Positions 20,181-21,601 of a DNA stretch of 64,000 bases are shown one piece after another. The notes beneath the pieces are model-generated. The model saw nothing but the letters and a program-made list of their open reading frames with translations, made no database searches and was not told where the DNA came from. Made by a program: the position numbers and the translations under genes. The stretch comes from Polyangiaceae bacterium (GTDB lineage: Bacteria; Myxococcota_A; Polyangia; Polyangiales; Polyangiaceae). The number at the start of each line of letters is the position of its first letter. Within the stretch, counting starts at the first letter, position 1. The stretch lies in NCBI GenBank assembly GCA_025937835.1, contig JAICQO010000017.1, forward strand, positions 1 to 64,000. Reading direction: 5' to 3'.

Positions 20181-20206
20181 GGGGGGCGCTAGTCTCGGCC
20201 GCAATG

Positions 20207-20572
20207 GTGCGTCGTGACGCGACGGAAGGATTGACCCCGGGAGGGGGAGGTTCGTCCGGAGCTCGCTGCGCTTGTCCAGCGGGTGAGAGTCCCGTCCCGG
20301 TAAGCATCGGTGCGCCGGGTAGCAGGTCCCAGGTATCGGAGGGAGACCTCCGTGCCCGAGCGGGACGTCAAAAGCCCGTGAGGCAGCGAGAGCTCCGCCG
20401 CGGGGAGCAAGTACGCGGGCCGCAACCTGAAGTGAAGCCTGCAGCCTCGACAGAGGAACAATCCGGGAACGAGAGACCACCGGTAAGCCGTATGCGGGAA
20501 ATCCGCACGCACGGTTTGAAAGGGGGTCTTGCTCTCTTTCCCCTCGCTCACGCGAGGAAAGGATAGAAGGAT
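20207..20572 (+). ncRNA. ORF-less miniature group II intron-like RNA
   Basis: Structured RNA element of about 366 nt with no coding potential. The 5' end is GTGCG (20207-20211), the group II intron 5' consensus. A domain I-like part holds a CGGG/CCCG hairpin with loop TGAGAGT (20280-20294), a CGGAGG-GAGA-CCTCCG hairpin with a GNRA loop (20337-20352), and a CTGAAGTGAAGCC...GAGGAACA tract like domain I of bacterial introns. A domain V match lies at about 20485-20518: AGCCGT, then TGCGG, GAAA, CCGCA and the bulged ACGCACGGTTT strand, with the catalytic AGC triad at 20486-20488. A domain VI-like stem is at 20531-20560. Domains II-IV and any reverse transcriptase are missing or vestigial. It ends just upstream of the pirin ATG, supplying its Shine-Dalgarno GAAGGA. 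The 3' end is approximate. Confidence 0.7.
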
Positions 20573-20578
20573 CCACCA

Positions 20579-21601
20579 ATGGCTTCCGTCGTGCTGGCGA
20601 CCCGGCCGCTCGGGTTTCCGTGGCCTACCTCAGATCCGTTCCTGTTTTGCGTGCATCACGACGATGCATACCCGGAGGGTGATGATCGGCTGGCGCCGCG
20701 GGCGTCCCTCGCCGGCCGCAACCTGGGTCAGGATTTCGAGGGCAAGGACGGCTTCCGCATGTACCACGGGCGCGTCGTGCCCGGCTTCCCCCAGCACCCG
20801 CACCGCGGCTTCGAAACCGTGACGATCGTGCGCAGCGGCTTCATCGACCACTCCGACTCGCTCGGAGCGACGGCGCGCTTCGGACGCGGAGACGTGCAGT
20901 GGCTGACCGCCGGCGGCGGCATCGTCCACTCGGAGATGTTTCCGCTGCTCGAGCGCGATCGGCCGAACCCGCTGGAGCTGTTCCAGATCTGGCTGAACCT
21001 GCCGGCGTCGGACAAGCTCGTCGCTCCCCATTTCGCGATGTTGTGGAACGAGGCCGTGCCTCGGCTGCGCGCCGTGGACGCCGCCGGAAAGGCCACCGAG
21101 GTCGCGGTGATCGCCGGGCAGCTCGCCGACCACCGCCCGCCCGCGCCGCCGCCCCACTCCTGGGCGTCCCGGCCGGATAGCGACGTCGCGATCTGGTCGA
21201 TCCGTATGGATCCCGGCGCGCGCTGGGTGCTCCCGCGCGCTGCCAGCGAGGAGACGCTGCGCACGCTCTATTTCTTCAGGGGCGACGCGCTGTCCGTCGA
21301 GGGCGAGCCTTTCTCGAGTCACCGAGCGATCGCCGTCGAGGCCTCGCGGGACATCACCCTCGAGGCGGGGTCGGAGGCGGTCGAGATCCTGGTGCTGCAG
21401 GGCAGGCCGATCGGCGAACCGGTGACCGCCCACGGCCCCTTCGTGATGAACACGCACCAGGAGATCCAACAGGCCATCGCCGACTATCAGCGCACCCGCT
21501 TCGGCGGTTGGCCCTGGCCCGACGACGCGCCCGTTCATGGACGGGACGCCGGCCGGTTCGCCAGGCATGCCGATGGCCGGATCGAGCGCAAAGACGGGTA
21601 G
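20579..21601 (+). CDS. Pirin-family cupin protein
   Basis: A 340-residue bicupin of the pirin family. The N-terminal cupin has the metal-ligand motif FPQHPHRGFETVTIVRSG and a GDVQWLTAGGGIVHSEM segment, with the expected His and Glu ligands. The C-terminal cupin is shorter (TLYFFRGDALSVEG, IEVLVLQGRPIGEPV-type strand) and ends in NTHQEIQQAIADYQRTRFGGWPW, the pirin C-terminal signature. Known: pirins bind iron and some have quercetinase or redox-sensor activity. Here the substrate is unknown. The ATG at 20579 has GAAGGA 8-13 nt upstream, which lies in the tail of the group II-like RNA, so translation may depend on that RNA. Confidence 0.9.
   Translation: MASVVLATRPLGFPWPTSDPFLFCVHHDDAYPEGDDRLAPRASLAGRNLGQDFEGKDGFRMYHGRVVPGFPQHPHRGFETVTIVRSGFIDHSDSLGATARFGRGDVQWLTAGGGIVHSEMFPLLERDRPNPLELFQIWLNLPASDKLVAPHFAMLWNEAVPRLRAVDAAGKATEVAVIAGQLADHRPPAPPPHSWASRPDSDVAIWSIRMDPGARWVLPRAASEETLRTLYFFRGDALSVEGEPFSSHRAIAVEASRDITLEAGSEAVEILVLQGRPIGEPVTAHGPFVMNTHQEIQQAIADYQRTRFGGWPWPDDAPVHGRDAGRFARHADGRIERKDG

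Follow-up and report, generated by a model that had tools for sequence, protein, structure and literature searches.

A bacterial gene for a pirin family protein is directly preceded by an RNA element with the appearance of a group II intron, in which no reverse transcriptase (RT) gene is present. The element was recognized in a stretch of 64,000 nt (the window; contig JAICQO010000017.1, positions 1 to 64,000, of a Polyangiaceae bacterium). The questions raised by this locus are what kind of intron it is, and how it came to end exactly on the start codon of the gene next to it.

Identification of the Intron

The Rfam scan of the whole window returned only one match above the cut-off, to RF02003 (group-II-D1D4-4, gathering score 49). 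The score was 76.1 bits with the E-value 7 × 10−15, or 1.1 × 10−16 when 1 kb was scanned alone, and the match represents the domain I–III core of group II introns. In a lax scan of the 1 kb, domain V matched RF00029 at 38.3 bits (E-value 8.9 × 10−6), slightly below the gathering score of 40; this is the Infernal check that the earlier note had proposed. The domain V includes the AGC triad and a GNRA-type loop. The predicted fold of the 375-nt RNA was better than those of 100 out of 100 shuffled sequences (z = −3.7). Thus, the two Rfam matches and the fold indicate that the intron is real and, on comparison with its relatives, it is an ORF-less group II intron RNA of 375 nt (Table 1).

Most of the features that the earlier note had read from the bare sequence were recovered: a group II intron with 5′ GUGCG at 20207, an epsilon-prime-type hairpin (GGGUGAGAGUCCC, inside the RF02003 match), a domain V of 33–34 nt with the AGC triad, a domain VI-like stem, here with a bulged A, the absence of an RT ORF, and a ribosome-binding site contributed to the adjoining pirin gene. 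The element supplies the AUG of pirin as well, and its end, placed at 20572 in that note, is corrected to 20581 to include this codon. The bulged A is the 7th base counted from the intron end, and its context is CC(A)CC in the window copy versus CU(A)CC in the relatives. The 3′ end of the family reads AAUG, and the splice point is ambiguous between AAUG/ and AAU/G (slashes mark exon–intron junctions). A 3′ end at 20635 (CCTACCTCAGAT, within pirin), given by the RF00029 alignment, was rejected because the relatives end at AATG, which corresponds to 20581.

The candidate EBS1 is tentative. Its complementarity to the start codon is limited to CA against UG, and in the alignment it corresponds to CAAAAA in those class C introns from Paenibacillus that follow ...UUUUUG. 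The AACAUGAA loop was also considered as EBS1 and dropped, as it is found in introns at other sites too.

Table 1. Features of the intron and its host locus, in window coordinates.
Feature	Position	Strand	Basis
TAGTCT, predicted -10 element in the promoter of the invaded gene	20190..20195	+	8 nt before the 5′-exon ATG; family site rule
5′ exon ATG, now upstream of the intron; putative former leaderless start of pirin	20204..20206	+	[AG]TG invariant in the family
Leader ORF MVRRDATEG..., 120 codons, from the 5′-exon AUG through the intron	20204..20566	+	
ORF-less group II intron, start-codon lineage, 375 nt	20207..20581	+	RF02003, RF00029; end-to-end alignment with 13 relatives
Domain I–III core (Rfam D1-D4-4)	20277..20430	+	76.1 bits, E = 7 × 10−15 in the whole window
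Candidate EBS1 CAGAGG, tentative	20451..20456	+	Alignment to relatives
Domain IV stub ATCCGGGAACGAGAGACCACCGGT, containing the point of RT deletion (near 20468/20470)	20461..20484	+	BLAST halves around the RT insert of relatives
Domain V AAGCCGUAUGCGGGAAAUCCGCACGCACGGUUU, 33 nt	20485..20517	+	RF00029, 38.3 bits; an A.C mismatch at one position paired in the family
Domain VI stem, bulged branch-point candidate A20575	20518..20577	+	Alignment to relatives
Intron-borne Shine-Dalgarno GAAGGA	20566..20571	+	Sequence
Intron-borne start codon AUG, final three intron bases	20579..20581	+	Conserved CUACCA[AG]UG end
Host gene, pirin family protein	20579..21601	+	Pfam PF02678 (Pirin), PF05726 (Pirin_C); intron-less leaderless orthologues

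Loss of the RT Gene

BLAST comparison with relatives from the same order always divided the window copy into two halves, query positions 10–274 and 276–387. The halves are separated in the relatives by an insert of mostly 1.5–1.7 kb (approximately 1.65–1.7 kb where the RT is carried), versus 1 nt in the window copy, where the insert point is around 20469. The RNA halves of the relatives are 236–265 nt and 106–129 nt long, matching the window copy in order and size, and 13 relatives align with the window RNA over its full length once the insert is removed. A group II RT/maturase is encoded there, recognized by TIGR04416 (411 bits) and by Pfam RVT_1 and GIIM; no further Pfam match lies C-terminal to GIIM. 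Domains II–IV had been read as seemingly absent in the earlier note. Judging from the colinearity with the RT-bearing relatives, domains II and III are present as in these mobile introns, and only the ORF of domain IV is gone; thus, the window copy is not a minimal intron. Most relatives have an RT in domain IV and the window copy does not; by this comparison it is a non-autonomous derivative.

The search for similar copies that had been suggested earlier had two outcomes: the intron is single-copy within its genome, and full-length relatives with an RT were found from other genomes. No RT was detected in the draft genome of the window with Pfam RVT_1 or the family RT alignment. Fragments of other class C introns lie at contig ends of this genome, indicating that repeats are absent from the draft assembly. 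Thus, an RT may be missing just from the assembly. At the ends of two contigs, a different class C-type intron follows a terminator-like hairpin (G000:C78, L074; G000:C201, L073), and its RT is likewise not in the assembly.

The copy could be dead debris, a remnant neither spliced nor regulatory that is tolerated through its ribosome-binding site and AUG. The loss of the RT, the broken domain V pair, an altered conserved loop, and the failure to find an RT in the draft genome agree with this. However, the window copy differs at only 4 of 146 otherwise invariant columns, among them a pair in domain V and the neighbor of the branch A, and intact relatives differ at 1–10 such columns. Decay of the ribozyme is therefore not shown, and the incompleteness of the assembly weakens the argument from the missing RT. 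A degenerate copy had been among the suggestions of the earlier note; this holds for the RT, the 4 changes and the broken pair, but changes in such number are also seen in the intact relatives. We regard debris as a possible explanation, somewhat on the improbable side.

Shrunken RT ORFs were observed in other copies: L091 (2800–3030), L070 (900–1760), and L279 and L315 (G678, a 731-nt copy). Most of domains I–III is also gone from L091, with both ends and the host ATG kept. In L052 (G162, 584–2419), the RT is partly deleted, and the frame from the exon AUG is stop-free through the intron into the host gene; L052 is without the leader-ORF stop found in the window copy.

Insertion Sites of the Intron Family

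The 5′ exons of the family were gathered by a search that required neither ATG nor TA. Three of the 45 matches were non-family junctions and were set aside, and several loci without a readable 5′ junction were left out of scoring. At readable 5′ junctions, the exon ends with ATG or GTG and is followed immediately by GUGCG or by its variants TCGCG and TTGCG. The intron ends with CUACCA[AG]UG or a close variant. Upstream, TANNNT is found 6–9 nt before the start codon in 41 of 42 distinct 5′ exons (26 at 6 nt, 9 at 7, 5 at 8 and 1 at 9). The consensus of the family is TANNNT-N6-9-[AG]TG/GUGCG ... CUACCA[AG]UG/. The same spacing of TANNNT is seen for 0.7% of all [AG]TG occurrences across the window, and at approximately 18% of gene starts of the fetched loci (15/82, with 2 in the out-of-frame control), the latter being a rough estimate. 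In a later independent sample fetched to test the rule, mostly from Nannocystaceae, 16 of 17 readable start-codon junctions conformed. The -10 rule is broken outright at L302 and at L328, from Mycobacteriaceae, which are otherwise normal start-codon insertions; L169 carries TATAGA. A search of plasmids gave only short domain V matches, yet it led to a copy from Embleya that obeys the same site rule.

Leaderless genes have TANNNT at such a distance from their start codons, as is established for mycobacteria. The insertion sites are therefore predicted to be transcribed without a leader, and specificity of the lineage for leaderless start codons is strongly supported by the comparison of these junctions.

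The ORFs beginning in frame at the intron AUG are host genes of various functions based on Pfam, encoding ArsC, FabA, CobW, GNAT, ABC, MFS, response regulator, pirin and other proteins. Besides A(A/G)UG, the 3′ end of the intron often carries a Shine-Dalgarno sequence. As the CUACCA[AG]UG end recurs at dozens of unrelated host genes, the pirin AUG is assigned to the 3′ end of the intron. The possibility that the AUG is a target-site duplication was dropped, because GTG in the exon is paired with ATG in the intron in L070, L077, L101 and L103.

The window copy follows the rule on both sides. The 5′ side reads TAGTCT-N8-ATG/GTGCG, with TAGTCT just past the stop codon (20180) of the preceding gene, and the 3′ end CCACCAATG fits the A[AG]UG end with pirin in frame. 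Joining the exons in silico gives ...TAGTCTcggccgcaATG/GCTTCC. Many uninserted pirin orthologues have TANNNT-N6-8-[AG]TG, the same leaderless layout as at the window locus. Within its genus, the intron precedes pirin in the window species alone.

The site may be found through open promoter DNA or by sequence recognition, or the rule could arise by survivorship, if the introns land widely but are kept only at leaderless start codons, where the RT is expressed and the host gene is spared. The RT frame needs a start codon and the intron-borne AUG does spare the host gene; the predicted EBS1 pairing is very short; and the distance from TANNNT to ATG varies between 6 and 9, which a rigid base-pairing rule would forbid. 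On the other hand, genomes with multiple near-identical young copies (G181 with 8, Nannocystis with several) have them exactly at ATG/, the readable copies obtained from complete genomes included no strays, and copies with a dead RT are at start codons too. Survivorship is therefore considered unlikely.

In L065 (1091–1442), two introns are in tandem, the second having entered the ATG with which the first one ends. The end of the first intron, TAGGAT-N6-ATG, resembles an insertion target.

The Reading Frame from the Exon AUG

The frame opened by the exon start codon is stop-free over 633–693 nt in 32 of 45 copies, passing through domains I–III into the RT. All of these lengths are multiples of 3, and the other two frames are closed (median 32 and 3 codons). 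The lengths of domains V–VI, used as a control, fall on all remainders modulo 3. The comparison across copies thus indicates conservation of the frame. The in-frame, stop-free exon AUG is seen in most non-actinobacterial members: myxobacterial, acidobacterial and some others. The off-frame copies are the actinobacterial subclade and L303, L306–L308, L020 and L096, which are apparently decayed or divergent. L020 and L096 keep the RT with a broken leader frame; thus, the RT may in addition be initiated internally.

The actinobacterial subclade has a 121–127-codon leader ORF that begins at the exon AUG and ends with GGTATAAGCCGATGG, where UAA is followed by a nearby AUG. This ending is suggestive of termination-reinitiation into the RT. 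The leader is conserved in L092, L107, L108, L109 and L328, ending GGTATAAGCCGATGG(TGAA). We infer from the frame and the site rule that the host promoter and the leaderless AUG are used to express the RT.

In yeast mitochondrial introns of the aI1/aI2 type, translation of the intron protein continues in frame from the preceding exon across the ribozyme domains. There, the exon encodes a part of cox1, whereas the lineage described here is bacterial and its "exon" is the start codon only.

The leader ORF of the window copy is in the same frame that runs on into the RT in relatives. It stops with UAG 12 nt upstream of the pirin AUG, with the Shine-Dalgarno GAAGGA in between. This arrangement, together with the mostly retained ribozyme core and the absence of the RT, could be taken to mean that the copy was domesticated as a leader of pirin, in which the folded intron RNA and the leader ORF would control translation by termination-reinitiation. 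Yet the identical layout is present at unrelated genes in mobile copies, and elsewhere in the genus the pirin locus is free of the intron. Domestication thus appears quite improbable.

Phylogeny and Distribution of the Lineage

In the RT tree, which has 61 rows, all start-codon introns fall into one clade of 32 rows with the support 97/91. The rows outside the clade do not have the ATG end. The clade covers Myxococcota, Actinomycetota, Acidobacteriota, Planctomycetota and others; several members are metagenome-assembled genomes (MAGs), and their taxonomy is therefore soft. Reading the two labels of the rows at face value as separate RT clades was rejected: the rows labeled "other" within the clade (L103, L105, L107, L112 and L116) are regex misses or cut loci, and on reading, all have a start-codon 5′ or 3′ end.

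The sister rows, such as those of Paenibacillus (L118, L120 and L122), are sited after intrinsic terminators, and L118 and L122 match RF02003. The start-codon clade is nested among these terminator-inserting class C introns, and the best solved relatives of the family RT include the GsI-IIC RT. The lineage shares with bacterial class C (IIC) introns the D1-D4-4 RNA and an RT without an endonuclease domain or any C-terminal Pfam domain. It differs from them in that class C introns target terminators or attC, while leaderless start codons are targeted throughout this clade; in addition, the 3′ end carries a start codon, and the RT frame opens at the exon AUG. From the nested position, the terminator-sited sisters and the common Rfam model, the start-codon lineage appears to be derived from class C introns with a switched target, rather than being a standard class C member.

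The 3′ signature was found from 39 of the 318 genomes of the class Polyangia, and the reversed pattern from none. The pattern was found in just 2 of 401 genomes of Mycobacteriaceae; thus, the lineage is sparse in this family. In class C introns from Streptomyces (L146, L150 and L152), the presumed EBS1 region has CUCAG, complementary to an exon CUGAG approximately 8 nt upstream of GUGCG; these introns may in fact begin elsewhere.

Proposed Mechanism

The window element very probably descends from a mobile group II intron and has lost the RT; it belongs to a clade that targets leaderless start codons and would use the host AUG for its RT. In the junctions compared, members of this clade are inserted immediately after [AG]TG located 6–9 nt downstream of a TANNNT -10 box. 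The host promoter and the leaderless AUG would then drive transcription and translation of the RT. In myxobacterial, acidobacterial and some other members, the RT would be read as one ORF through domains I–III, while in actinobacterial members the leader ORF ending beside the RT start would allow coupled expression. The host gene would still be translated, either from the intron-borne AUG or from the AUG restored after splicing. In the window copy, the RT has been deleted, whereas the ribozyme, leader ORF and signals for re-starting at pirin are retained. Such a copy would move or splice only with a maturase supplied in trans, or by itself. The 5′ exon of a leaderless transcript would be approximately 3 nt, and the predicted EBS1-IBS1 pairing is 2–3 bp at most; splicing from such an exon is therefore uncertain.

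As a broader proposal, which we favor with some reserve, this class C-derived lineage would represent a fourth target type. It would insert at leaderless start codons, perhaps while the DNA is melted in the promoter open complex, take over the host promoter and AUG, encode an N-terminal RT extension in domains I–III, and repay the host with a Shine-Dalgarno sequence and an AUG. The insertion site would supply what the element needs, a promoter and a start codon, and also define what must be returned, the start codon. A bacterial catalytic RNA would be under dual selection, as a ribozyme and as a coding sequence. The insertions would mark leaderless genes in genomes without transcript maps, and the specificity could suggest a route to steer intron-based gene targeting to transcription starts.

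Comparison with Known Introns

Three target types of bacterial group II introns were listed in a review in 2015: homing sites, terminators and attC (PMC4424553). Leaderless start codons would be added to these. A report of start-codon specificity was not found in the freely accessible literature searched; one may exist in a subscription journal.

ORF-less bacterial introns are rare and nearly always accompanied by a related intron-encoded protein (IEP) in the genome (PMC4424553). Those of Thermosynechococcus depend on relatives in trans (PMC2882425; PMC4424553). The window copy resembles them in the lost RT and the kept ribozyme, and differs in that a related RT was not found in the draft genome, a rare state for an ORF-less bacterial intron. 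C.te.I1 of Clostridium tetani splices via four alternative 3′ sites, fusing ORFs (PMC3919590). It is similar to the window copy in being ORF-less, in having start codons of downstream ORFs within domain V/VI motifs, and in the absence of an IEP from the genome, but it is a single alternatively spliced locus, whereas the start-codon lineage is mobile. The first view of the window copy, as a miniature group II intron cut down to domains I and V (and VI) and close to the theoretical minimum (I + V), would suit its short 375 nt, missing RT and genuine domain V, but it is highly improbable, as the RT-bearing relatives have ribozyme parts of equal size and order and differ by just the ORF insert.
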